Assembly: GCA_947184155.2 (NCBI GenBank)
Contig: CAMXCT020000891.1
Location: forward strand, 472,501-536,500
Source: Cladocopium goreaui
Taxonomy: Eukaryota > Sar > Dinophyceae > Suessiales > Symbiodiniaceae
DNA length: 64,000 bases
Reading direction: 5' to 3'
Position numbers and translations under genes: made by a program. Of the stretch, positions 14,128-63,478 are shown piece after piece. The notes beneath the pieces were generated by a model. It was not told the DNA's origin. It did no database searches and saw only the letters and a list, made by a program, of their open reading frames with translations. Numbering within the stretch: position 1 is the first letter of the stretch; each line of letters opens with the position of its first letter.

Positions 14128-14246
14128 CCCTCTGGTTATGACTAACAGTTCGCCATGGTATAGATGGCCCATAGAAATAGATGGTTTACCGTTCTTAATA
14201 GCATGGTGGATCTTTCCATGGCGAACTGTTAGTCATAACCAGAGGG
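14128..14246. mobile_element. CCCTCTGGT MITE copy (intact)
   Basis: CCCTCTGGTTATGACTAACA against its near-perfect inverse, flanked by TA on both sides. The whole copy folds back. Confidence 0.85.
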
Positions 14247-31980: not shown

Positions 31981-32499
31981 TTCACCACCGCAAGTCCTTG
32001 GGTTGTTGCCAAACCTCCAGATGACTATCCCCCATATTTTTTTTGCTGGCTTGATACCCACCATAGGTTTGTCTGACAAATTGAAAATAGAGTACCCCAA
32101 CATTCCGTATTCCATGGTCTGGAACAAACCAGTTTGGAGGCATTGGCATACCCCAAAGCATACATTCCCGTTCACTGCCATTCAGCATATATATATATAT
32201 TCTATCATCAAAACGTTTCTGGATTCTGGTTTGAAAATCAACTAAATTCGGAGGCTTAGTTCGCTAGGACAATTTATCGAACTCTAAATGTACATTAATT
32301 CCCCGAACTAAATGGACACTTAGTTCGCTGGGACATTTTATCAACTATATAAATTCCAATGACGTTCATGGCAAAATCATGGCAAAATCATCTATAATAT
32401 CTATAATCTACTAATCTCACCTATTATAAACATCATCTAAATGAAATTTTCTTGGAAAATCATCTAATCATAGAGGTGTCATTGTGATTTAGAATCTCC

Positions 32500-32510
32500 A
32501 CTATAAAAGG
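32500..32510 (+). promoter_or_regulatory. TATA-like box
   Basis: CACTATAAAAGG lies 17-27 bases ahead of the ATG at 32527. Dinoflagellate promoters are reported to use TTTT-type boxes rather than TATA, so this may be chance. Confidence 0.25.
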
Positions 32511-32526
32511 AGGTGTTTCCTCCACC

Positions 32527-32667
32527 ATGGAGCGTTTCCCTTGGGAAAAAAACAACGCAGAATCTCTCAGTGGTTACGAGGTCGAGGCCTTGAGTGGCTT
32601 GCCTCCCGAGTGGCAGGAGATACTGGGGGGAGTCGAGCTGGGGCTATGGGATTTTTGCATGGGATAA
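32527..32667 (+). CDS. Short frame, 46 aa, in strong start context
   Basis: ATG in CCACCATGG context opens MERFPWEKNNAESLSGYEVE, then ALSGLPPEWQEILGG and an aromatic end to TAA at 32665. The middle is GC-rich and protein-like. It ends 10 bases before a MITE. It may be a first exon (a GC donor GAGCTGGG/GCTATG is conceivable) or a complete small protein. Unrecognised. Confidence 0.4.
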   Translation: MERFPWEKNNAESLSGYEVEALSGLPPEWQEILGGVELGLWDFCMG

Positions 32668-33285
32668 ACATGGATTAGCCTCTGGTAAACTAACATAACT
32701 ATGGAAAATCACCATGTTTAATGGATAAATCAACTATAAATTGCTAGGGTCACGGAATGCTTAACACTATGATTTGGTTCTGGCTATAGTTCTGGGGGGT
32801 GTCTTGGTTGATCGGGGAGGGTGTCCCACTTCTGGGTTGCGGTGTTTTGGTTTTCCGGCTTGGTGCAGTGAGGCGGCAAGGTCTTGATAGTGAAAAACAT
32901 TTGTCGCAAAGTTGCCTGGCAACTTTTTTTCCATGGCTTTCCATGACAGTTTGTAGATTCTTGTGCCTAAATCACTTGGAAAAAGTCATTGTTTTCTTTT
33001 ATGGGGTTGTGAAACCATCCGGTATCAAAATTCAAGACGCCAAAATGGATGGCAAAGATGCTTGCTAGCAAAACTTTGTTAACAAACCAGCGTGGTATTT
33101 CTTTTATGTATGGAAAAATTGCCTTATATCCCATAAACACTTGAAGCCGGCCTTTTTTTTATGTTGCCTTCTTTTTGTTTGGCAGCAAATTTTGGCCAGA
33201 AACCGGTTTCAGAATGATGGCGGAAATATGTAAAAAATAGCAACCGCTGGCTTCGATTACGGTGTTCGGCGCTACGGCTTGTCAT

Positions 33286-33711
33286 TTAATGACAAGCAGA
33301 GCCTTCTGATTTTGGGGTTCGTTGGTCTGGGGCATGCCCTGCAGTATCGGCTGTGTGAGATGGGGCAGGATTCAGAACACGCCGTGCCGGTCTTGGTTCA
33401 ATTTCATGCTTACTTTTCTTGCAGCGTTTCTCGTGCTGTTGTTTTGGTGATAATTTTTGGTTTTCGGCATTAGACGTACCAGAAGGCATGTCGCGGATGA
33501 GAGAAATACTTTCTTCGGGAGACTCACTGAGACTCTTCAGATTGCGGTGCCTGAAGTGTTTCAGGGCGTGGCCGGAACTGTTCTGGACGTGTTTCATCTT
33601 TTTCCCATCTGCCAGGTGATCCGCCAGACAGCGGACACCGGACACCACGGCCTTATGGCGAGCCCGCCAGCTCTTTGCACATCCGGACCCGAACCCTATG
33701 CCAGATAACAT
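33286..33711 (-). CDS. Doubtful frame within the TIR element
   Basis: A 141-codon frame, Lys/Ser/His-rich (SESPEESISLIRDMPSGTSN in the middle). Its upstream end is exactly where the 793 bp foldback is inserted, so any original protein is broken there. Plus-strand frames also open here. No transposase motif seen. Confidence 0.2.
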   Translation of the reverse strand: MLSGIGFGSGCAKSWRARHKAVVSGVRCLADHLADGKKMKHVQNSSGHALKHFRHRNLKSLSESPEESISLIRDMPSGTSNAENQKLSPKQQHEKRCKKSKHEIEPRPARRVLNPAPSHTADTAGHAPDQRTPKSEGSACH

Positions 33712-33717
33712 CCCAGA

Positions 33718-34510
33718 TATTAAATTTCACGAGCTCCTGGGATTTTGTGATTTTTAGGGAATATTGGATATCAAGGTCAAGATGCAATATTTGGTGCAGT
33801 GTACGCGCACAAGGGTCGCACGAAAAACTTAAGCGTCATGGTTTGCACGGGTTTGCACTGGATCAGCCTTCCATAAATGGAATTGGTCCAATTAATCGTT
33901 CAGAAAAAATGAAACGGTCGGAAACAGTCGGAAACATGATCGGGCCAAAACTTGTCCAACCCGCATTTCTTTAAAAAAAAACATTTTCGCGCAACGCATT
34001 TTTTTTTTGAAGGTCCAAAGGTGTCCAAGGGGAAACGGTTGGAAACAGTCGGAGATCACACCTTCGCTCGGCAAAAAAGACATGTTTTTACATAATTTTC
34101 AAACATGTTTCATGAACATATGCTACAAAACAACTACTTTTTTGCCGAGCGAAGGTGCCATCTCCGACTGTTTCCAACCGTTTCCCCTAGGACACCTTTG
34201 GACCTTCAAAAAAAAAACTGCGTTGCGCGGAAATGTTTTTTTTTTAAGAAATGCGGGTTGGACAAGTTTTGGCCTGATCATGTTTCCGATTCTTTCCGAC
34301 CGTTTCCGACCGTTTCATTTTTTCTGAACGATTAATTGGACCAATTCCATTTATGGAAGGCTGATCCAGTGCAAACCCGTGCAAACCATGATGCTTAAGT
34401 TTTTTCGTGCGACCCTTGTGCGGGTACACTGCACCAAATATTGCATCTTGACCTTGATATCCAATATTCCCTAAAAATCACAAAATCCCAGGAGCTCGTG
34501 AAATTTAATA
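33718..34510. mobile_element. 793 bp giant foldback element with 8 bp target duplication
   Basis: Two arms of about 360-375 bases, nearly identical in inverse, flank a loop of about 58 bases (34079-34136). Outer ends are TATTAAATTTCACGAGCTCC and its inverse. The flanking ATCCCAGA is duplicated at 33710-33717 and 34511-34518. Arms differ by a few substitutions and small indels, so insertion is recent. There is no protein of its own. Confidence 0.9.
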
Positions 34511-34518
34511 ATCCCAGA

Positions 34519-35030
34519 CACGATGTCATAAAATATGTCAGAGAGGTGCCAGATATAATGCCAAATAGAATGCCAGATAAAACGCGTCAGAAAATATAGC
34601 AAACAGAGAATGTCAGATAGAATGCCAGAAAGAATTCCAGATAATATATATATATATATATTTATTTATCTACTTATTTATCTATTTATTTATTTAGGTT
34701 ATCTATAGAACGTCAGGCAGGATGCCAGATAAAATGCCAGAACGAACGGCGGGCAAAAGGTAGGAATAAACGTCAAATTTAATGCTATATATAAATAAAT
34801 GAGCTTGTCAGGCGCAATGCCAGATACAGCGTCGGAAAATATGTCGGTAGAGTAGAATGCCGGATAAAACGTCAGAATATATGTCAGATAGAGTGTAAGA
34901 TGTCAGATTAAATGCCAGATAAAACGTCTGAATGATAGTATGTCAGATAGAAACGCCAGGCAATATGTCAGAATATTAATTCGTCAGATAGAACATGATA
35001 AAGTATGTCAGTAATAGAATGTAAGATATC
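34519..35030. repeat. Degenerate TGYCAGATA repeat field
   Basis: Twenty or more copies of ATGCCAGATAAAACGTCAGA-like words at irregular 10-25 base steps, with a TA tract at 34646-34700. The same word (ATGCCAGATA) lies just left of the foldback, so that element inserted into this field. Confidence 0.7.
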
Positions 35031-35370
35031 AGAACGCGTGGCTGAAGCTTTGCCATGGCTGAATGTGTGTTTGTGGGGCGCACCTTTTTTGTGTGTCTCA
35101 CTTATGTTTTCAACTTATCTGGGAAGCGTTGGTTCGGATGTGTCTGGGCTGCATTTGAATAGCTTCCGGCATATGTCTGTGTTGTGGCTGGGTGCTGTGT
35201 TGTGTTGTGTTTGTGCAATGGTTGGGATCTGTTCAGGACATGGCTGCGTTGAAGGTCGGAAATCCTTATTAAAGAATCCGTTCTCCGGGGTGGGTTCATG
35301 TTGGAAGGCTTGCGGGGACGTGCTTGCTGTAGGACAGTTTGCTGCGCATCCTTCCCCCCCACATGTGTAG
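35005..35370 (+). CDS. Doubtful frame within the TIR element
   Basis: A 121-codon frame with hydrophobic segments (LCVSLMFSTYLGSVGSDVSG; LWLGAVLCCVCAMVGICSGH) that could span a membrane. It lies in TG-rich DNA of the element and shows no known domain; the opposite strand is also open for 118 codons. Confidence 0.2.
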   Translation: MSVIECKISERVAEALPWLNVCLWGAPFLCVSLMFSTYLGSVGSDVSGLHLNSFRHMSVLWLGAVLCCVCAMVGICSGHGCVEGRKSLLKNPFSGVGSCWKACGDVLAVGQFAAHPSPPHV

Positions 35371-36066
35371 GGCTACGGTAAAAGGGCGTGAAATGCTTGG
35401 AAAACATGTTGGCCAAACTGCTTGGCAGAACACGTTGGCAGACATTTTTGTCAACCATCTTTGCCGGCGATGTTGGCCCCTGCCCTTGCCAGGGGGTTTT
35501 GCGCTCATGTGGCCTGGAGTGTTAAGCATTCCAAGGCTTCATCAAACTATAAATGGTCATTTTCACTAGCAATTTGCTAGTTTACCAGAGGGTAGCCATG
35601 AAACATGTTGAAGATTGGTGTTTATATAATTGCAAAAATATGAAGATATGTAGTATTATGTCATGTTCAAAGTATCAAAGTATCACAACCAATGATGAAC
35701 TGCTTGGGCGTGCAGTTGAAGTGAAATTATTTGTGCCAGAAGCAGAGCGATATCAGTGGGATCTACTCTGGCAAAAGACGAATAGCCTATGGAAGCTATG
35801 GCCGCTTTAGTTCGATGATTTACCGTTTGAAAAACAACAGCAACTTATGTTTCATAGTTCAAGTTCTGTTGAATTACCAGATGATAGTAGCTGACAAAAT
35901 GAGGATTCACCAACTCACCGACTAATGGATGATATAAATTCGATTAAATTCGTGTATATCCCATGAAAAATGGTGGGTTGCGGGACTTCCACACACGCTA
36001 GTATTGATGATATAATTCTGGACAAATGTCTGGACAAACCGTCACTGGAATGTTCCTCCATGATGA

Positions 36067-36214
36067 CCATCTGGTTATGACATTCACAGTTTGCGAACTG
36101 GAAAGAAAGATCCAGCATGCTATTTTCAGAACGGTAAAGCCAGGTAAAGCGGTAAAACATCTATTTCGATTAGGGCCATGTTCCATGGCGAAGTGTGAAT
36201 GTCATAACCAGAGG
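36067..36214. mobile_element. CCCTCTGGT MITE copy, long form
   Basis: Ends CCATCTGGTTATGACATTC / GAATGTCATAACCAGAGG with well-kept arms. Confidence 0.7.
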
Positions 36215-36956
36215 CTACACGCCATGGTCGTTGGAATTCAAATTGAGATCGACGTCGTCCGGGAGAGTCATCCCCAATAGGGCCTATATGAAGACATCAT
36301 AAGAAATCCTGATCCTGGGACCCTGGGATGACCTTAGTCCACCGATGTTTTGACCATGGCACGTATGAAAAAAAACCATCGGTGGGAAGTTACCCAAGGA
36401 AAATGATCCGTATGTGGTGAGCTTTTGGGGAAAAAAACCATGGGATTCTTCCAATGCCAGGCTGGATTTCTATCGCAAGGGGTGACGATCATATAAATTT
36501 TATAAATCAAACATGGATTTGTCACTATATGTATTACGTCAATGTGTATATATATAATTATATATATACGCTCCTGCAGGACAATGATCCTAATTGACTT
36601 TCAGCAGGTTTTTGTGTTGCATGGCTCAAGCACCTTGGTTTTGAATGCTCATGAATTGAACAGGGCTGAGGTTTCACCAATGGGTTGACCCAATGTTGAC
36701 CCAATGTGGGCCCCGATTTGTGATGTTGGTTAACAAAAACCCCAGTAACTATACTTCAAAGTATCATCAACCATAGACTGGGTTTGTTTAGTCGGTGATT
36801 TGGCTTATTTTCCCAATGGGAAATCCACCATGACTAGGGAATCTATAGTGAATATTTTTATTTTTTGGGGACCCCTTAAGCAAATCATAAACCATAGTTA
36901 TGGGAGTTATGTTCAAAAGGGGGCCCCACCATGTAGCCTTTCTTCCTACACGCCAG

Positions 36957-37868: not shown

Positions 37869-38669
37869 AATTTGATGGAACATGTTCTTTTGCTAGGGAA
37901 AAAACGTGGTTTAATCATAATCACACAGGAGATCTAATCTGCCAAAAATAGGATCTCTTCGAGGAAAACTTGGGAATTTAACAGCAACAAAGATGGGACA
38001 GATGGTGACTAAACCATTAAAAATGCGGGTTAGGGTTATCTCCTCAATGATTTGGATCATGGTTTCTTAACTGGAAAGGGCGGACACCTGTATGTGGCTT
38101 CGCCCAAAAATAGGGGATACTAAACTTGTTATTGCAATTTTAACTGGTAAAGAACGATGATCAACTGCGTAAGATTGGAGTGAATTTGCTTTTTTTAAAT
38201 ATTTGGATGAATTATACAGACCCTGACCAACAGGCTAGTAAGGGAACGCCCGCATTTTTGTTTGAATTTCACCTTATTTCAGGAAATAATCATAGTTCAG
38301 CCCGATAATCTAGCGGTATTACCCACAGCTTCGCTGGGCTGAGAATATGTCCAGCTATCACACAGCTACAATGTGAGACTCGGTGAGACCCCCTGCCCTG
38401 GATAGCAAGGGTTGACTTACAACTTGGTCAACTTGGTCAACGTTTGGGTGGGTTATTTCATGGTATAACTGGTATAACTATATGTTTTTGATTGTTTTTG
38501 CGTGGGATTTGGACTATAACTTTTAACCATTTTTTGGCCTCACCTCAAGTCATCAATATACCAAGCGATACTTAGATGACTCGAGGTTTCATTGGGATGA
38601 TCCCCATTGACCAATATCTGGAGAATCTAAGAGAAACTTGCGGTGCAGTTCCAGTGATAATTGTGGTTA

Positions 38670-38740
38670 GTGGTTTTATAACCACAGTTGGTGAGTTATA
38701 TAACCACAATTGGTGAGTTATATAACCACAATTAATTGTG
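38670..38740. repeat. Tandem repeat, 24-25 bp
   Basis: Three copies of TATAACCACAATTGGTGAGT with small changes. Confidence 0.75.
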
Positions 38741-38939
38741 AGTTTTTGTTGGGGCCACAAAAAAAAACGGCTTTGTTGCTGTACGGCAAGTCCCTGCCGT
38801 ATTTAGTCTCTGTTTACAGGGGAATATTCGTGGAACATCACCATGAACTACTATAGCTGTAGGTAAATCACCATGGTAAATCATCCTATAGCTGGGCCAT
38901 GGCTTCCATAGCTATCTGAAATTGACCAGAGGGAATATA

Positions 38940-39040
38940 CCCTCTGGTAAACTAACATAACTATGGAAAATCACCATGTTTAATGGGAAAACTCACTATA
39001 CATGGCCATTTTCAATAGCAAACTGTTAGTTTACCAAAGG
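38940..39040. mobile_element. CCCTCTGGT MITE copy
   Basis: Left end CCCTCTGGTAAACTAACA; right end TTAGTTTACCAAAGG. A second, diverged copy lies immediately left (38835-38935), sharing the TA junction. Confidence 0.75.
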
Positions 39041-39468
39041 ATAATCCACTTCAAATACACCATTTGGATCCATTTGGCAACATCGGAAGAAAGTATTGGA
39101 TCATAAATAGATGCCGGAGAAATTCAATATTGAGGGGAGGGAATTTTCTACCAAATTATACATCTGGTTGGTGGGTTCACTTTTCAGAAATGATATCCTC
39201 TTTACGATGATCCCAAGTAACAAGCAGCTAAGCATATCTTTGGAATGCGTTGAAGGCACCAGCCAGAATAAGAATGAACCAGTCTCATATTGTATATACA
39301 CATATTTCGGCAATTCAGAGTGTTGGTTAACCCCTACGTTTTGATGCTTAATTTTGTTTGGTTAAAGAATGTTCAATCTAGACATATTGAGGTATATTAG
39401 GTAAATTATAGCGACGTCACCGATCTCCGTCACTGGAACCATGGTGAGTGAGGGACAACTACCCCTAA

Positions 39469-39568
39469 CCCATAGGATCCATGTATGCTATATATGATAA
39501 CATTTACCATATTTTACCATCAATATACCCCAAACGTTAGCATATATACCATACATGGATCCTATGGG
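39469..39568. mobile_element. MITE, CCCATAGGATCCATG family, with TAA duplication
   Basis: Ends CCCATAGGATCCATGTATG / inverse; TAA flanks both sides (39466-39468, 39569-39571), as in PIF/Harbinger-type MITEs (inference). Confidence 0.8.
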
Positions 39569-39623
39569 TAATATATAGCCTTAATCTCTTCAACTCAGGT
39601 TATTGCCCCAGTTAAACATGAAG

Positions 39624-39744
39624 CGAAAGGCCCAAAAGCGGCCCGCGGCTTGGGTTCGCCGACTCTTCGTGTCGATCCGCCGAGGTCGTCCGGGCGAGAG
39701 TATTGAGCAAGAAATTACCAGGACACGACACGGACGACGTCGGG
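39624..39744 (+). CDS. Exon candidate joining 40523 in phase
   Basis: Acceptor AACATGAAG, donor GTCGGG/GTTCAT. The frame reads ERPKSGPRLGFADSSCRSAE then VVRARVLSKKLPGHDTDDVG, 40 codons with about 68% GC3, ending in phase 0. A competing frame from an acceptor at 39598 starts VIAPVKHEAKGPKAARGLGS and stops at 39704; it would join the 37587 exon directly in phase 0. GC-rich DNA continues past 39704, favouring the first reading. Confidence 0.4.
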
Positions 39745-40003
39745 GTTCATGGGGGGCATGGATTTTTTTTAATGGATTTCCACATGGAAATCTGGTAGAT
39801 ATATGTAGATATCCCATGTTGATGACTATCTATAGAAGATTTAAGTGTAGACTATCTCTATATATTCTGAACGATAAGCTTTTTTTTTGGGATTATTAAT
39901 TCATCATCATTTAATATCCTTTGTGGATCATCGCTATGTGCTTATGATTCGACTTGATCATGACTGTCGCTGATTATTTCATCTCCCTCAACGCTCTTTT
40001 TCG

Positions 40004-40100
40004 CCCATAGGATCCATGGTGCTGCTATATATGGTAACATGGATCCCATCAATATACCCCAGTCATGTTGGCATATATACCAGCACCATGGATCCTATGG
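40004..40100. mobile_element. MITE, CCCATAGGATCCATG family
   Basis: Hairpin CCCATAGGATCCATGGTGCT / AGCACCATGGATCCTATGG. Confidence 0.8.
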
Positions 40101-40159
40101 CTAGGTACTTATGACTATCTATACGATCTATGAATCATTCAGCTAATACATCGAACAAG

Positions 40160-40417
40160 TCAACGATTGGCTCTGTACTTAGTACCACAACAGTTGGGCA
40201 TTTTGGACCTGGAAATTTGGGCCAACACCGCAAACGCTGGAAAACTCCGATTGCAACCAAGTGACACACAATCACAATCTGAGAACGTTCCTTGTGGTGC
40301 TGGGAGTATTGGCTTCACGTTAATAGTGATGTGATTGCAACTCCGGCAAGCCGGACTAGGAGTGTTGGCAGTATTGAAGAGAATTTGAGGAGCAATACAT
40401 ACCCCACATCTGATCAC
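40160..40417 (-). CDS. Weak Cys-rich frame, strand doubtful
   Basis: An 85-codon minus frame with ten Cys including CRSC and CDCVSLGC. The plus strand is equally open (TWKFGPTPQTLENSDCNQVT to a TAA). No domain recognised. Confidence 0.2.
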   Translation of the reverse strand: MIRCGVCIAPQILFNTANTPSPACRSCNHITINVKPILPAPQGTFSDCDCVSLGCNRSFPAFAVLAQISRSKMPNCCGTKYRANR

Positions 40418-40522
40418 ATATGTACATATACCATCTAATATACCTCATACAGATTCATACATATCAAACAAGGACCTTTTTTCCAATGGCTTTCGTCCTT
40501 CAAGGTTTTTTTTCAAAAAAAG

Positions 40523-40666
40523 GTGGCGCAGTACACAGGGCGTGACCCAGGCCGTGTTTCTGATTTCGCCTTTTTCGTGGATCGATCATTGAGACTGGAG
40601 TGGAGTCGGTGGCATCACCTGCCTGCCGTGGAATGGCCGTGGAATGTCGACATGGATATAAGATGA
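40523..40666 (+). CDS. C-terminal exon candidate
   Basis: After a T-rich tract and acceptor AAAAAAAG, phase 0 reads VAQYTGRDPGRVSDFAFFVD, then RSLRLEWSRWHHLPAVEWPW and NVDMDIR to TGA at 40664. Rich in Trp, Arg and acidic residues like a folded domain. The stop abuts the left end of a MITE. It would close the gene that begins in the 37 kb region. Unrecognised. Confidence 0.5.
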   Translation: MAQYTGRDPGRVSDFAFFVDRSLRLEWSRWHHLPAVEWPWNVDMDIR

Positions 40667-40771
40667 CTTACTGGTGCGTTTTACGCAGGGAATTTTCGGG
40701 AATGATCCCAGTCATCACTAGTAATTTCATCATCCCAGCAACCCATCCATTCCCTACTAAGCACCAGTAAG
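40667..40771. mobile_element. MITE, CTTACTGGTGC family
   Basis: Ends CTTACTGGTGCGTTTTACG and TACTAAGCACCAGTAAG. Confidence 0.75.
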
Positions 40772-41344
40772 ATGATATAAGTGTTCATGGGATTTAGAAG
40801 CAAACCTATAACTGGAGGGCCCCAGTTTTCAAGACATGATCCTTCGACGCCATGGCGTACTGGGAAGCAGCTTACAGTGATCACCCGAGAGCAGTGTCTG
40901 GGTTTGTGGTTCCGCTTGGTGGTTCATCCCATCTTGGTAAAATTTGGTAAATTGGTGAGAATACCTGGGTTATGAATGGGCTAAGTAGGGTTAGTCCAAC
41001 TACAACTGAGTTATGACCTACTTTCTAAGTAGGATGAACCTCCACGTAGTTTTTTTTCGTCCTGTAGCCCCCAACAAATGGAACGCGTTTCTCCAAATGC
41101 AGTGCGTAACTTATAATTGTTATCCAGGATGGATATGGATGGATTGAATAACGCAAGCAATCAATTTCCTTACATATTAATTGATAATTATTGATCTAAA
41201 TACCGAAGATTTTCTGTTGTCTCTCCCTCCCTGGCCCCATATATACATGAGCCACAGTCAAAAGGTCGACATCAGGATTCTAGATTTATCGTGGCCAACT
41301 GAGTTACAGAAGGGTTGTAGTAGTTTGAATTAAACATGCCAAAA

Positions 41345-42035
41345 GAATGTGAAAAAAGTGTGGTTTAAAAATGTATTATGTTTGAAATGTGAAAAACCAT
41401 GTATTTTAAAAATGTAAAAACAATGTGAACAAAATGTATTTTTTAAAAGCAATTTTGAAGCTTTGTTCTCTTTTCCTTCTGCAATTTGATTTTATGTTTT
41501 TGCTCCTGGTAGACATTGCTTTGCTATAGATATATTAAACAGATCTGCGATCTGCACAGTCCACTTCCGATCAATTTGAACTGCTCCTCTCCGATTTTCA
41601 ACCTGCAGAAGTTGGGCTGGCAGCAAAGTAACTGCAGCAAAACGGGACCCAACAAATTCAAACCTGAAGAAAAAAAAATCAGAGTTCCACCTTCCCAACT
41701 GGATTTTCATTTTTTCACATGAATCATTGAAAATGAATATATGATAATATATGCTTATGTGGAATCCTAATGTTTAAGTTTAACATTCTATATTTCAACA
41801 TTGGGTTTCAAAGAAAACCTGAAAAACACCCATATTATATCTGGGAAAAATGGGAAAAATGGAGCTAAGAAACAGGAACTTTTCAACTGCCTTTTGTTCC
41901 CATTTGTTTCACATTTTTCCACATTTCCATGTTTTTAACATGTTTTCACATTTTTGAAATGCATGTTTTCACATTTTTTTAAACTGCATTTTCATTTATT
42001 TTTTCACATTTATTTCACATTTATTTCACATTCTT
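41345..42035. mobile_element. Inverted motif-array element (TGTGAAA type)
   Basis: The left part repeats AATGTGAAAAA-like words (41350-41450); the right part repeats the inverse TTTCACATT (41900-42030), at 12-30 base steps. The centre (41490-41710) holds a weak minus frame (FAAVTLLPAQLLQVENRRGA). No target duplication was found. Confidence 0.45.
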
Positions 42036-42155
42036 AGTTAATCATTGTTTTCAAGCCTGTAGCTGGAAACGGCCATGATAATTCTAGATAAAGTGGCATA
42101 GCGGAATAGATGTCATGTGTAGATAAGCTTTCTGGGGGGGAGAGCAAGCAACCAG

Positions 42156-42272
42156 GTTGGAATCCAGAGGCAGCCAAGGATGCAGATTTACTCGGAGTCA
42201 CGATAGGCTGTTCACCAGAAGAAGTAAGTTCGGCATATCGCCAGGCTCCTCTCTGGGCGCACCCAGACAAAG
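42156..42272 (+). CDS. DnaJ-like J-domain exon
   Basis: Acceptor CAACCAG, donor GACAAAG/GTGGGA. Reads WNPEAAKDADLLGVTIGCSP, then EEVSSAYRQAPLWAHPDK. It carries J-domain hallmarks: LLGV at the end of helix I, EEV..AYR in helix II, and the invariant HPD loop at the exon end. HPD stimulates Hsp70 ATPase in the family. Helix III would be in the next exon, not identified. If read through the donor, the text after HPDKGG loses J-domain character, supporting the splice. Takes one base and leaves one. Confidence 0.6.
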
Positions 42273-42889
42273 GTGGGAGGCTGCAGTCCCTTCCTATAAA
42301 AAATACAGCAACCAAAATTGCCGCAAATGAAAGGATCCAATGCCAAGACAGGGGTCCTGAGGGGTATTCCTTTTGGGGGATGACATTGACCATTTTGAGT
42401 GGACATTTTCGGGAAAAAGACACAGGAAACAATGTTCCAGATGAATTGGGATGAGTTTCACTGGCCATTTCAGCTACCTGTAGTGGAGGCACTGTACTAT
42501 ATAAGGCAATCTTTTTGGGTGTGCCACTGCATACAGCTTCGTAGACTTGACCTTACCTATGGGTTGCCTATGGTAGATACTTCCACTTTTTAGGTACCTG
42601 ACACTTCCCCCTGAAATTTGTCAGCTCACGGTAACCTATAAAGAATAGACTTCATATGATTCATCTTTTCCTAATGCAAAGCTCGGGGCTCCAAAGGCCG
42701 ATGGTGAAGGGTAATAGGAGGAAGATCCTGGTCCTCACTGTTGGTGTGTATAACATGGTATAATATGGTATAATCCAAATGATAACCAATGACTACAGTA
42801 TGAGTATGACTACTATTGTATATATACGTATATATATACATCTATGTGTAATAGACTACTATGTCTCAAGAAGGTTGAAGCAAAGACGA

Positions 42890-43121
42890 AGGAGTGGCAA
42901 CATGTGGCAACCAAGGCAAGTGGTTGCGGCTGGTGCGTCCCCGAAAGAGGAACAGCTTGGAGATTGGTACGCAGAGAAGGCCAAAAAGAAGTCAGCGCTT
43001 CCTCAACAAGGCTGACCTTGCAGACTGGTGGATGCCCTCCAGGCCGGGACAACAAGGCCGGCCTTTTTCGATTGGAGAACTTACAGCTTTTTCGAAGCAT
43101 CTGGCTGTTGTTTCATATTGA
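42890..43121 (+). CDS. Exon-like GC island, frame uncertain
   Basis: Two plus readings are plausible. One ends at GC donor CAACAAG/GCTGAC (43011) and reads QVVAAGASPKEEQLGDWYAE then KAKKKSALPQQ. The other has higher GC3 and reads RFLNKADLADWWMPSRPGQQ before GC donor CAACAAG/GCCGGC. Both leave one base and fit the 43164 exon. A minus frame of 95 codons is also open. Confidence 0.35.
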
Positions 43122-43163
43122 AATGACATCATGACCTCGAGGAGAATTCATTGAAGTGTTGAG

Positions 43164-43269
43164 CCGTTTCTTTGGGAAACACTGAAAAAACCCCGCTGTA
43201 CTGGTACGGTGCCACCGTCCGAATTGCGAAAGTCTGTGCTGTGAAAAAGTTGCGCCATGCTGGGGAGAG
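43164..43269 (+). CDS. Exon with GA donor candidate
   Basis: Acceptor GTTGAG; reads VSLGNTEKTPLYWYGATVRI then AKVCAVKKLRHAGE. Read on, it meets TGA at 43280. A GA donor at GAGAG/GATGAG would instead carry AG into the 43794 exon, where the acceptor is CCAG/G, giving the AGG shared at both ends typical of dinoflagellate introns. The join yields a continuous basic helix, so splicing is favoured. Confidence 0.5.
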
Positions 43270-43793
43270 GATGAGACGATGAATTTCAACTGACATTGGC
43301 TGGGGTATCTTTGAAAATTCTGGGTTTGTTGAAAATAATTGTTGGTTTTCCCATGAAATCCACTGGAATCTATAGGATTGTTGTTGATTTAAGATTATTT
43401 AAGCACATCCAAGAATTTTCAAGCCAATAGTTTGCTTGTGGGAATCAGGACAGGATACAATTTTCCTTGAACAATGCTACGGAGTACACGGACACAGACA
43501 TGTGTTTGGTAGGTGAGTTGGCAGTTTGCCTGCGAGTTCCTGCCCGCAAATTTTGTGAGGGTTCCTGCATTGTTCCGGCAGAAACTACTTCTGGGACTGT
43601 AGGGATATATTAAACATACAGTATACCAATTACATATAGTTACATGCAATTTCCAATATATCATTGATATATACAAACTGTATAGTGTTGTTAGTGTTAT
43701 TAGATTTGGTGATAGTTCTTTTGGGTACCTCAGTTTGGGGTGAATTGTCGATAGCTGAACTCCACATCTTTGAACCATTTTTTGACCTGCCAG

Positions 43794-43869
43794 GCTCAAG
43801 TCCGAAGCAGCCGAAGTCAAGAAGGTGCGCTTAAACAAGTGGCTGTTTTCCACCCGGGGGGAGATGTGA
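43794..43869 (+). CDS. C-terminal exon following 43164
   Basis: Very good acceptor ATTTTTTGACCTGCCAG. The first G completes Arg, then LKSEAAEVKKVRLNKWLFST, RGEM and TGA at 43867; about 75% GC3. Phase 0 (AQVRSSRSQEGALKQVAVFH) is an alternative. Confidence 0.5.
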
Positions 43870-44140
43870 AATAAAGATGTCATGTTTTTTTTCCCCAAAA
43901 CCAAAGGTTTCAATATGAAAATGGTCTCATTGTGGATGATTTGGAGGTACCCCTAGGTTAGGAAACCTCCATGTACGATTCACGTGACACTCCAGTATGA
44001 ACACATTGTAAACAAAAATAACTTCAATAGTACAAGAAAATAGCACGGCAAAACGCTTCTGAAAGCATTGCTTAAAAGGATAGATTGGATAAATTTCAGA
44101 AGAATCATCGACTGACGTCGGTAAGACTGACATATTTCAG

Positions 44141-44186
44141 GGCCAGGGCTGCACCGCAGATGCTCAAGCTCTACGGATGGTACAAG
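44141..44186 (+). CDS. Micro-exon candidate
   Basis: Acceptor ACTGACATATTTCAG, donor TACAAG/GTTTAC. Best frame ARAAPQMLKLYGWYK (80% GC3), two bases in, none left. Confidence 0.4.
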
Positions 44187-44239
44187 GTTTACAAAATAAC
44201 CAATTTGGGTAGGATCAAGTCTTGGCCCCAAAAAGATGA

Positions 44240-45256
44240 TACCCTCTGGTTATTTAACATAGCCATGGTATAGATGACCCATTTATAGAATAGGCCCACC
44301 TATTTCCCCTACAAAATCTAGCACGTTGACGTTTGAAACAAACCATTTTTTTGAGAGTTATGTGATGGTATTTTGAATGCTCCTCAAGCTGATTGAGACT
44401 TTGTAGGAGGCCATTTTTGGGGTGATATTTGGGATTACTTTTTGGATGTTTCTGGTTTTGTAGAATTTTGGTTTTCAGGAGTTTAAGGCCATGGTTTAGA
44501 TTTTGTCGGATGTTTCTGGTTTTGTAGGGAAATGGGCTGGACCATGATTTCAGTTGATTTTATATGTTCCATTTGGTTTCAAAAATAATTGACATGTATG
44601 ATTCCACATTTTCTGTGGCATTGAAATTTTGGAACTGAATGGCATTGATGTTGATGTGGAGACATACATAGATCTTTTTTATTCGTTTTTGATCTACAAT
44701 CTACAGTACCAAACGGGGATGAAGTGCGGGACACTATGCTGAAGCAATCTGAAGATTGCAGAGCGTGGTGAAAACTTCAGTCAAAGACAAAAGAGCAGCG
44801 GAAAAAAAACAGATGAAGCCAGCGTGCAGAGGAAAATCATGGAAAATCAGGGCCTCTACAAAATCAACAAGTGAATCAAGCTGATTTTTATACTTCAAAC
44901 ACTGGTTTCTCTACAAAATGCATTTTTTCTGAGACAATTTTTCAAGGTTTTATGAATCAATGTTTAATGCCTTTATATAGCAGATGGATTTCTATGATTT
45001 GGATTTTGTAGATTTGGAGGGGGTGACAGGTGTAAGCCCAAGTGGGGTTGCATATTAAGATTTTGTAGATTGAAGATGTTCATGTTCAAATGACATGTTT
45101 CTGGTTTTGTAGGGCCCCCCCCCCCTATGTTTTTAGATTTGCGCATACAAAATCTGAACCCCCAACCCCCAGGGCTAACAAACGCAACTATTTTATAGAT
45201 GGTTTACCTATTAAAAATGGTGATTTTCCATGGCTATGTTAAATAACCAGATGGTA
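44240..45256. mobile_element. CCCTCTGGT MITE split by a 902 bp insertion
   Basis: Left arm CCCTCTGGTTATTTAACATA to 44289; right arm from 45192 to AACCAGATGG. Joined across the duplicated TTTATAGA they give a normal MITE like the one at 29970. Confidence 0.85.
44290..45191. mobile_element. 902 bp TTTTGTAG motif element with 8 bp duplication
   Basis: The target duplication TTTATAGA is at 44282-44289 and 45192-45199. Ends share only ATAG in inverse. Inside, about a dozen GGTTTTGTAG or CTACAAAATC motifs occur in both orientations (for example 44319, 44455, 44519, 44856, 44910, 45005, 45058, 45104). There is no protein. The class resembles 15117-16075. Confidence 0.75.
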
Positions 45257-45423
45257 CAACAAATTGATTTGTTTGAACATGTACCCATCATATACGTTGC
45301 CATTTTTGGGTGTTATCATGGCAAATCAGATTATCTGAAGGTGAATTCAACAATCTCATCTAAATTTGACTACTGCATTAATCCTAGGGTGTTCCCATCA
45401 ATATTGCCATTTTGAGGAATTTC

Positions 45424-45557
45424 CCATTCTTGGACACACCTTCTGAATACCTGAAACCGGTGTTGGGTACCACGTCGGCCTCCTTGATGGTCGAATTGGG
45501 AAGGGCCATGAGTTCAAAGCAGTTTGTCACGATTCTGATGATCAACTATGGAAATTG
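45424..45557. CDS. Exon-like island, strand unresolved
   Basis: Plus frame: TPSEYLKPVLGTTSASLMVE, then a Met/Ile-rich run. Minus frame: MALPNSTIKEADVVPNTGF ending at donor AG/GTATTC. Both look like protein. Confidence 0.35.
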
Positions 45558-46294
45558 TATTAGATGTTTTTTTGGGGGGAACAACTCACCACTGTTACAA
45601 TATTACATCCATTTCGTGGTGAATAAGGTCCGATGTCCCCATTTGTTGCTGACTAAAGCCACATCATAGTGATGATGACCCTGGTTCTTTTTTTGGATTA
45701 TTTTTAACTCATGGTGTGCTCTTGTGAGCCATTGGTTCATTCCAACCCCACGCCATTGGGTCATCTTTGGGATTTTGGAGCCATCGAAAGCTGGATGGTT
45801 CATCCCACGAGCAACAAACAGCTGCGAATTTTGATCATTGGCCAAGTCGGGTTGGTCCACACCTAGGCTTACTGTATGATTTCATTTTAAGGCATCATAA
45901 GATGGTCAAAAAATGCTGATTCTGAATGGGCTAAGAATTGGGCGTCCACGTATAATTACGGGTTACTATCTACTGAATCTACGTGGCATGAACCACGTGT
46001 CGCCATACACTTGGATTTGATCACAAACCACGAAGCAAGTTTGTGGATCAACAAACCACCTTCACCAGGCTTTTTGTAAGAAATCCTATAAACCACCAAA
46101 AGGATGGTTGAAACCGTTGAAACACTATAAATAATAGGATAAATCGGATACATGATAAAACCATCTATAAAGACTGGTGCAGGACTTCTTCCACCGGACC
46201 CGCCGTATCATTGATAGATTTCAACTATAGCTGGTTGGTGGTTTGGAGCATTTTAGTCTTGTTGAGGGGTTGAACGAGGGGGCGCCCTGGCCAG

Positions 46295-46346
46295 GATGTT
46301 TCCGCCAACAAGAAGGTCCAAGAGGTGGACCTGCGGATACCCCACC
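46295..46346 (+). CDS. Exon candidate of the 46.3-49.3 kb chain
   Basis: Acceptor CGCCCTGGCCAG; reads DVSANKKVQEVDLRIPH, 76% GC3. Donor either CCACC/GTTATC or, shorter, CAAGAG/GTGGAC at 46325, the latter leaving phase 0 and joining DWAKK of the next exon from its internal acceptor. Confidence 0.45.
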
Positions 46347-47133
46347 GTTATCCAAGTGATTGAAGTGATCAATGGGAAAATGGTAGCCGGGTTGCCATAT
46401 TTTAGGACACCTCATGTTCCAAAACCAGGTGTTGATTCAAAATTTGTCACATGCTTGGCCATGAAAAAAGCGAGGTAAACCCATATTTCTGCAGCTGTAG
46501 CTGAACTCAGTGTGATCATTGGGGCGCGAGGCCTTGAACATTTGAAGGATGGGCCCCACCATAGTTGGATAAATTGGGTTATTTGGGTATATGAAAATAT
46601 TGGATATATGGGTTTAATATGGTTTAATCAAATTTATCCAATTTATTACACAGTTGGTTCAACCTGTTGGGTATATGGTAGATATATCCAAAGTTGAATG
46701 GGTTTATGAACAAACTTCCCATTCACTTTGCATCTTTCTATTGTCCTTTGAAAGGGACTTCACCTTCCAATCTCCCAGAAATTTGCCCGGATGTTTCCCA
46801 ACGTTTTTTCACATCTGAGTTTGTCGACACATACGGGTTTTCTCCAATGTGTTGCGACATGATGATAAAAGTAATCCTAACCGTCAGTTTTTGTTGTTTT
46901 GCATTTTTTCCACAGACAACCCCCACATTTCTTTCCATTTCAGTTGGTCAAATCCAAACTTCCGGTTGGTACAATACCATTGTTGGTTGCATCCCCAAGT
47001 TGATTGCGTCGATAATTCAGACAAGCCACATGTTTTCTACCTGGAATACCAAGTCTCGTTTCTTTTGGTTAATCTTTTGTTGATCTGGATACTTGTTCCA
47101 TGACAAATATGAATATGATCCAGTATTGTATTA

Positions 47134-47233
47134 CCCTCTGGTAATTTAACATAGCTATTGAAAATGGCAATTTATAGTGAGTTTTCCCATTAAAAGTTGT
47201 GATTTTCCATAGTTATGTTAGTTTACCAGAGGG
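47134..47233. mobile_element. CCCTCTGGT MITE copy (intact)
   Basis: TA-flanked, ends CCCTCTGGTAATTTAACA and TTAGTTTACCAGAGGG. Confidence 0.85.
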
Positions 47234-47649
47234 TAATGTCTACTTGGATAAAATGAAATACTCTCAAACATTGTATGACCCCGAATATTGTCGAATGTAA
47301 TATTATCTTTATGACTCAACAAAAAAACTGAATTGTCAGACACCTTACACATAAAATGCTCCAGACTCTAGACAAATAATCTTAATTCCTTAGCGAAAAG
47401 GAGCTTCCTGTCTCTTTGGGCCTCGTAGGCCTCATAAAAAGTATTTTGGCCTGCTGACTTGCACAGATTATGGTCAGTTTGTGGCCATGGTTAGTTTGCG
47501 TTTCAGATGTGTTCACAATCGTTGTTGGTTTCATCAAAATCATAGTTTTGAACTAAATCAGCTAATTCAGAGCTTTAGATCCTAAATGGGTCAAACTCGA
47601 TAAAGAGAAACAGATCTAGGACATCGAAGGATTTCCCTGGATTTCCCAG

Positions 47650-47730
47650 GCCGCGGGCTCCGTTTCAGGACTGGGCCAAGAAGGTGGAAGACAGTCAGGC
47701 CGTGCTGAAGGAAGGAAAGGCCGTCTCCAG
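47650..47730 (+). CDS. Exon of the 46.3-49.3 kb chain, GA donor
   Basis: Acceptor CTGGATTTCCCAG (or TTTCAG at 47667). Reads FQDWAKKVEDSQAVLKEGKA then VS, 77% GC3. The GA donor CTCCAG/GACCGG carries AG into the 49188 exon, whose acceptor is TCCCAG/GACCG: nearly the same sequence at both intron ends. Otherwise a stop follows nine codons on. Confidence 0.5.
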
Positions 47731-47957
47731 GACCGGTGGTGCTTGAGTCCTTGACCCAATCATCCATAAGCAGACCATGACTTAGCATTGAAACCCATGG
47801 TGACTTGGGGATCCCCCCATTTTAAGCCCCCGTAAATATGCGAAAGATGACGTTTGAATTGTGGCTCGCCAATAAAATTTGAGATAGCCAATTTGGCGGG
47901 GCGCCATGTTGGCGTAGCAGTTGGAAATAGCAGTGGCAAATCCTTCGATGAGGTTGC

Positions 47958-48380
47958 CATGTGTAATGGATGAACTATGTAAATACATTTCTATATTATA
48001 TATATATAGTCTATATAGTGTATAAATATGTATATTATATTATATATATGACATATTGACTGCGCAAGTAATTGAACTGTTGCAGGCAGGGAACATATCC
48101 AAAAGAATTGATGCCATGTTGAAAAACCTGGTGCCCACTTTAAAAGCTATTCGCATGCGTGAAGGATTTTGAAGGCTAGACTTGGATGTCCAGCAAGGTA
48201 GTGTAAAGATGTGCTTGAAGTGTTCAGATCCCAGTTAGAAAGTGCCAAAGAACCCTGTTGGAACCTATGCATAGTACACATGTCATATATATATAGTATA
48301 ATATACATATTTATATACTATATAGACTATATATATAATATAGAAATGTAATTAATTACATAGTTCATCCATTACACATG
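47958..48380. mobile_element. Inverted-repeat element carrying a coding fragment
   Basis: Arms of about 95-100 bases, CATGTGTAATGGATGAACTA and its inverse TAGTTCATCCATTACACATG, both with long TA-rich stretches. They enclose 227 bases that are not TA-rich and include the frame at 48062. No clear target duplication. Confidence 0.7.
48062..48172 (+). pseudogene. Captured coding fragment
   Basis: Open to TGA at 48170: AQVIELLQAGNISKRIDAML then KNLVPTLKAIRMREGF. It looks like two amphipathic helices of a cellular protein. It lies wholly between the element arms, so it is likely a gene piece carried by the element, as in Pack-type elements. Source not recognised. Confidence 0.4.
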
Positions 48381-48639
48381 TTGGAACCATGTCAGAACTA
48401 TACATATATATATCACATATATACATATATGTATATTGCCTATTTCATATCCCCCAGCAGCGAATCTGTTTACATCATTTTACATCCCTGTTCTGGTTCA
48501 ATCAACATGCTGTCCCAGATCCAACGGTAGATCATCTGGGGATGTTTGCATCCCTGCTTTGGAATCTCCAGTAGATGATTGTAGCTGGGATAGTTATTTC
48601 TAGCAATCAACGCAACTATGATTTAAACATTTGAGATAC

Positions 48640-51235: not shown

Positions 51236-51532
51236 ATATGTGAATTTCTCGGAGAATGCTACATTATCATGGCTAAAAAGAAAATCCGTATGGATTGAAA
51301 ATCGCATATTCCCCAGTATGGATACATAATCCAACTGCTGACCATGGCACAAATGTTACCAGCGCCTCTATGATCTCCGTTTTTGATGTTGACCCGTAGC
51401 CAGAGTTATCCATTTTTTCCAATATGTTTCAACGACAAGGCGTAAAGTCTGGCTGCAGATCTTCGAGGGGGGTGGTAAACATCATTAAACATCATTCAAC
51501 ATCCCTTTTATCTGGCCACTGAGCCCAGTTAC

Positions 51533-51633
51533 CCTCTGGTAATTTGTTGCATAGCTATTGAAAATGGTCATTTATAGTGAGTTGTCCCCTTAAAAATGGT
51601 GGTTTTCCATAGTTATGTTAGTTTACCAGAGGG
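51533..51633. mobile_element. CCCTCTGGT MITE copy (intact)
   Basis: Nearly identical to the copy at 47134. Confidence 0.8.
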
Positions 51634-58326: not shown

Positions 58327-58427
58327 CCCTCTGGTAATTTAACATAGCTATTGAAAATACCCCATTTATAGTGGATTTACCTATTGAAAATGGTGATTTT
58401 CCATTGCTATGTTAAATTACCAGAGGG
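58327..58427. mobile_element. CCCTCTGGT MITE copy (intact)
   Basis: Perfect ends CCCTCTGGTAATTTAACATA and inverse, TA-flanked. Confidence 0.85.
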
Positions 58428-61457: not shown

Positions 61458-61557
61458 CCCTCTGGTAATTTAACATAACTATGGAAAATCACCATTTTGA
61501 ATGGGAAAATCCACTATAAATGGCCATTTTCAATAGCTATGTTAGTTTACCAGAGGG
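61458..61557. mobile_element. CCCTCTGGT MITE copy (intact)
   Basis: CCCTCTGGTAATTTAACATA to TTAGTTTACCAGAGGG. Confidence 0.85.
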
Positions 61558-63196: not shown

Positions 63197-63478
63197 GTGC
63201 CTCCAATGTGTCAAGGATTTTGAAATTCGAAAATGGTTTTGTGCTCGGATTTCTTTTGATCACTAACATCTGGGTTATATCAATTGCTTAGTTCAGACTG
63301 TTTCGTTCAGCTTGACATGTTGTCTCACCCAATAAAATTTGATGAAAGAACCCAATGACTGATTATCGAAGGTCGCCAACATTTGAAAACCATATTTTGT
63401 GTTGTCAAAATTTGGTTCATTTTCACATATTGGGGGATGATCCTCAGTCCATACTATTAGCAGATGTTAATATGCCCA

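Follow-up and report, generated by a model that had tools for sequence, protein, structure and literature searches.

The locus at positions 32678-35592 of the window (the whole 64-kb stretch of DNA that we analysed, G000:C891:472501-536500, G+C content 0.413) contains three mobile elements nested in one another, and almost certainly arose when non-autonomous DNA transposons of three unrelated families inserted one after another by cut and paste. A MITE (32678-35592) encloses an element of 2803 bp (32742-35544), which encloses a foldback of 793 bp (33718-34510), and all coordinates were exact to the base when rechecked. The first to insert, at a TA dinucleotide, would have been a 102-bp MITE from a family with a huge number of copies. 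A rare element with terminal inverted repeats (TIRs), which shares its termini with a 25.5-kb element and is a short relative of it, would then have inserted into the MITE with duplication of 10 bp, and a palindromic foldback would have entered the 2.8-kb element with duplication of 8 bp, either after the second step or while that element resided elsewhere. Each element probably moved by cut and paste with a transposase supplied in trans; a transposase could be assigned to none of the three families.

Nested transposon insertion is an ordinary, commonplace process, of which the locus is a clean example, and the families are a useful by-product. The locus yields three bounded dinoflagellate transposon families with target-site duplications (TSDs), and for two of these the empty sites are confirmed. 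One family is young and looks recently active, and another leads to a 25-kb element without a recognised mobility protein. A search of the open-access literature, which leaves subscription papers mostly outside, gave nothing relevant on foldback or nested transposons in dinoflagellates. Judged by the literature rather than by comparison with a repeat library, the three families are without a description that we could find, and the 25-kb one may represent a new lineage.

The MITE is split, as the original prediction had stated, by an element of exactly 2803 bp with AACTATAAAT on either side. The two copies of this predicted 10-bp target-site duplication match exactly (32732-32741 and 35545-35554, plus strand), and they are the only two occurrences of AACTATAAAT on either strand of the window. 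The left part of the MITE (64 bp, 32678-32741, plus strand) ends with the first copy and is found elsewhere in the genome at up to 98% identity, and the right part (38 bp, 35555-35592, plus strand) follows the second copy. The joined halves give an element of 102 bp that aligns end to end with its relatives and has TA on both flanks (32676-32677 and 35593-35594, plus strand). The 2803-bp element is itself split by a foldback of exactly 793 bp with its own 8-bp duplication, ATCCCAGA, at 33710-33717 and 34511-34518 (plus strand), again as predicted. Searches of the 1,165,616,438-base (1.17-Gb) assembly recovered both the MITE without the 2.8-kb element and the 2.8-kb element without the foldback, as paralogous copies in the same genome. 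The host is identified as a dinoflagellate by the spliced-leader sequence of this group, which is present 81 + 91 times in the assembly, whereas the reversed pattern is absent. These empty sites at both levels support the interpretation of the locus as three nested mobile elements, and the repeats at the junctions are not part of the elements.

The MITE family is extremely abundant, since its end motif TTACCAGAGGG is matched exactly at 63,403 genomic sites in forward and 63,170 in reverse orientation, whereas the reversed control gave 208 and 219. Copies are mostly ~100-120 bp long and flanked by TA; among 14 MITE-like pairs of 90-125 bp in the window and the fetched loci, TA preceded 13 and was present on both sides of 11. 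When the left flank and left half of the MITE (32400-32741) were used as the query, 1099 candidates were obtained and 40 were scored. Among these 40, the matches outside the window started at query base 260 or later and therefore covered essentially the MITE part only (77-98% identity), with none reaching into 32400-32658. The candidates that were scored, 40 out of 1099, included no allele or segmental duplicate of the locus, and we therefore regard the empty sites as paralogues.

Twenty relatives of the MITE were fetched from the top of the left-half similarity list, representing 18 distinct loci (L048/L049 and L059/L062 are duplicated). The insertion point was uninterrupted in 19 of the 20 (17 of 18 distinct loci); L064, which diverges right at the insertion site, is uninformative. 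TA preceded the element in all 20, and both ends with TA outside were kept in 16 (15 of the 18 distinct loci), while the right end was absent from L048 and L049 and L061 was altered at both ends. Six of the relatives contained AACTATAAAT, once each, and the remaining ones had a variant at that place. In 13 of the 20, BLAST aligned the entire MITE or stopped no more than 2 bases short of its end, with an identity of 89-92%. The closest copies in the window aligned with the joined MITE from end to end at 88% (38941-39040) and 87% (61459-61557) identity. Divergence from the joined MITE was 12-19% for six full-length window copies, each taken in its better orientation, and 22-24% for two and 13% for one of the copies in other loci; the closest copies in the genome, which were picked for closeness, differed by 8-11%.

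The inverted ends attributed to the 2.8-kb element in the original prediction are present, although their length is 27 bp and not 15 bp. The left repeat, TGCTAGGGTCACGGAATGCTTAACACT (32742-32768, plus strand), and the right repeat (35518-35544, minus strand) match at 20 of 27 positions, with a perfect inner block (15/15), an imperfect outer 12 bp and the termini TG...CA. The exact 15-bp core was found at seven places in the genome, two of which are the window's own, compared to one place for the reversed control. The left half of the element had eight matches including the window itself (8 candidates, all scored). The left boundary TGCTAGGG is common to three copies, those in the window, C1937 and C3058, which lie in unrelated flanks, and the right boundary ...CA is the same at four places, again in unrelated flanks (the window, C563/C2503 and C3058). 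C563 and C2503 (L012, L013) are duplicate contigs that are 99.99% identical over 9.9 kb, and represent either a duplicated region or an uncollapsed haplotype in the assembly. For the copies in C1937 and C563, no partner end was located in the DNA that was fetched, some of which consists of N.

The 2.8-kb element is ~3% diverged from the copy in C1937, which has 1167 bp extra at the junction 33529/33530. No obvious duplication flanks this piece in C1937, and the window copy has therefore most likely lost it by internal deletion. A Pfam search with six ORFs of the 2.8-kb element gave nothing above the cut-off and two sub-threshold matches. The region 34547-35029 (plus strand) is made up of arrays of a ~12-bp unit, TGCCAGATARAA, and the right half of the element, through arrays like these, gave at least 136 matches from the 40 scored of 1474 candidates. 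Arrays of the TGCCAGATARAA type also occur at places in the genome that have no match to the ends of the 2.8-kb element.

The foldback (33718-34510) is a near-complete palindrome with a central spacer of ~57 nt and the termini TATTAAATTTCACGAG. At the corresponding site the C1937 copy of the 2.8-kb element is empty, reading ATAACATCCCAGACACGATGTC with a single 8-mer ATCCCAGA, and the empty site in C196 has ATCCTAGA once. The copies in C563/C2503 are also without the foldback, but are uninformative on its exact junction because a local deletion spans the site. ATCCCAGA occurs three further times in the window, and it is one letter off ATGCCAGA, a 12-mer unit repeated in the host element, so that the junction repeats could in principle have arisen by chance or belong to the elements, with no insertion involved. 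This reading is refuted by the single-copy, uninterrupted sites in other copies at both levels; of the 20 foldbacks that were fetched, 18 moreover have 8-bp duplications, at targets unrelated to one another. An origin of the 8-bp repeat by chance from the 12-mer array was likewise rejected, ATCCCAGA being single-copy at that place in C1937. The duplication made by the foldback is thus real, since the foldback-free C1937 copy holds ATCCCAGA once at the exact site.

A search with the foldback arm gave at least 77 matches from the 40 scored of 260 candidates, and 20 copies were fetched and compared with the window copy (21 in all). An exact 8-bp duplication was present at the window-type boundary in 19 of the 21, whereas mismatched pairings of flanks gave 2 in 420. 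Two of the copies that pass (L027 and L044) are embedded in TA repeats, which make the extent of the duplication ambiguous; of those that fail, L045 matches over 8 bp when shifted by one base and L029 is truncated. The 20 intact foldbacks (19 fetched and the window copy) measure 781-898 bp and are 96-99% identical to their consensus with gaps ignored, the window copy being 3.3% off. The arms are ~390 bp each, and their identity within a copy is 91-98% in 20 copies (gaps ignored). Gene conversion keeping the arms alike was considered and rejected, given an identity of 95.3% within copies against a mean of 95.1% between copies. The foldbacks L031 (C6112) and L032 (C3707) are identical over 817 bp, yet 62 of 100 flanking bases and the 8-bp duplications differ, indicating recent movement. 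The family is thus young, and the identical copies suggest that it was recently active. C2557 and C1555 had the same scores as L031 and L032 in the foldback-arm search.

The element consists mostly of inverted repeat and has a duplication of constant length, both of them defining features of foldbacks; its arms in the window contain only short 10-bp repeats. It is named for this structure and is not filed as a member of FB/Mutator, in which FB and Tm1 have modular arms of tandem repeats that vary in length. Assignment to hAT or Merlin was rejected: the 8-bp duplication fits, but the ends TATTAA do not match those typical of either group. Merlin elements, in the available part of their description, have a terminal GG (PMC8101967). 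The Mutator/Foldback element Tm1, as described in the accessible part of the report (PMC3169594), is likewise almost all inverted repeat with a duplication of constant length. In contrast to the 8 bp and the ends TATTAAATTTCACGAG seen here, the duplication of Tm1 is mostly of 9 bp, and its TIR identity averages 93.15%, compared to 95.3% within copies of the foldback.

The relative age order claimed for the locus held in part. Each host is older than its guest: the MITE predates the 2.8-kb insertion, and the 2.8-kb element predates the foldback. That the foldback arrived when the 2.8-kb element was already in the MITE does not follow from the architecture, because an element loaded with the foldback could move as a unit, and nesting thus does not fix which of the two later insertions came first. 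The 2.8-kb element may have acquired the foldback while at a previous site and then have jumped, loaded, into the MITE, a sequence of events that we consider possible though unlikely. It is compatible with the nesting alone, no loaded donor copy would remain after movement by cut and paste, and the divergences of the two guests are similar (~3% for the element against C1937 and 3.3% for the foldback against its consensus). However, no other loaded copy was seen among the fetched copies, C1937 and C196 being empty and C563/C2503 deleted there, and the long C3058 element does not contain the exact foldback end. Because no other loaded copy was seen, landing of the 2.8-kb element before the arrival of the foldback is favoured, though not proven. 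Divergences fit the greater age of each host loosely, at 8-24% for copies of the MITE, ~5% between copies for the foldback arms and ~3% for the 2.8-kb element.

At G000:C3058:28408-53880 (L023, L018, L017, L010) both ends of the 2.8-kb element occur in the correct orientation, spanning 25,473 bp, and are flanked on both sides by ATATATATAT. This is compatible with a target-site duplication and does not prove one, because the target is an AT repeat in which any AT stretch would match. The left ~415 bp of the window copy are 97% and the right ~150 bp 93% identical to the 25-kb element. Since the left and right ends are common to both, the window copy is a short relative of the 25-kb element, and is presumably non-autonomous. 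MULEs usually have duplications of 9-11 bp, a range that includes the 10 bp in the window and, with the AT repeat as target, is compatible with C3058. Unlike in MULEs, the scanned parts of the 25-kb relative contain no MULE or other transposase domain, and we have therefore not filed the 2.8-kb/25-kb family as MULE.

The minus strand of the 25-kb element contains ORFs of 545, 246 and 516 aa. Pfam searches gave nothing above the cut-off for nine ORFs in or beside the element, nor when C3058:28501-53880 was scanned in its three minus frames and 38501-48499 in its plus frames; matches were sub-threshold only (tRNA_bind_3, E 0.22; YfkB, E 0.066; HMG_box_2, E 0.032; DUF4252, E 0.025; Connexin, E 0.0066). 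A genome search with the 545-aa protein, P0001, gave 42 candidates; all of them were scored, and 22 were matches, one being P0001 itself. Its relatives include reading frames of 833-834 aa, and the fetched copies in C225, C413 and C3263 are 99% identical in DNA over 3.4-3.7 kb. Six members, two of them fragments, could be aligned, with the approximate conserved blocks VxDDT, xDxLxxN, CxxHxxxL, CC and PLxYR. The proteins of five relatives (six frames) gave nothing above the Pfam cut-off, and PDB searches with P0001 and P0003 had best E-values of 0.5 or worse. A match of the alignment A1 profile to peptidyl-prolyl isomerase G (E 8.4e-5) was discounted, because it involves profile positions 18-81 only, which read as a charged low-complexity N-terminal region. 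A repeated tract of 16.5 kb that carries a P0001 relative (C225/C413) has no TIR at its ends, homology stopping in or beside simple repeats; we count this neither for nor against P0001 being a transposase.

In the P0001 family, the D, D and CxxH blocks follow one another in an order reminiscent of RNase-H-fold transposases, and we hypothesise that P0001 moves the 2.8-kb and 25-kb elements. A tentative proposal, which we hold to be possible rather than probable, is that the 2.8-kb element represents a new lineage of dinoflagellate cut-and-paste transposons that reach a great length (25 kb) and have TG...CA termini, a 27-bp TIR with the perfect core GGAATGCTTAACACT and a 10-bp duplication; they would be mobilised by the P0001 family, as a transposase not classified before.

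The outer MITE resembles TA-target MITEs of the Tc1/mariner type, to which TA target sites are characteristic, in its length of ~100 bp, its inverted ends, its TA duplication and its huge copy number; its TIR starts with CCCTCTGGT. The ends also read CTG/GTAA...TTACCAG/AGG, and the two motifs occur at fixed positions in the MITE ends at 47134-47233, 51532-51633, 58327-58427 and 61458-61557 of the window. The MITE might accordingly be read as an introner, a mobile intron in genes whose ends would supply the splice sites. Many MITE copies have GT...AG at their ends in the right order, and introners have been reported in dinoflagellates generally (PMC11453091, in the part available) and with TIRs in Symbiodinium (PMC9860276, likewise). 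Splicing at the candidate sites would, however, leave 11 bp of TIR and one TA in the mRNA, and we consider an introner improbable. As far as the accessible parts of two reports go (PMC9860276, PMC7789003), dinoflagellate introners share with the MITE a short length, inverted repeats and GT/AG within the ends; the Symbiodinium introner differs in having 4-bp duplications that provide the 5' splice site, whereas the MITE has TA and both its candidate sites lie inside the TIR. Other MITE-like elements with inverted repeats are present in the window at 36067-36215 and 14128-14246, with the ends CCATCTGGTTATG / CCCTCTGGTTATG; they resemble the split MITE and are longer.
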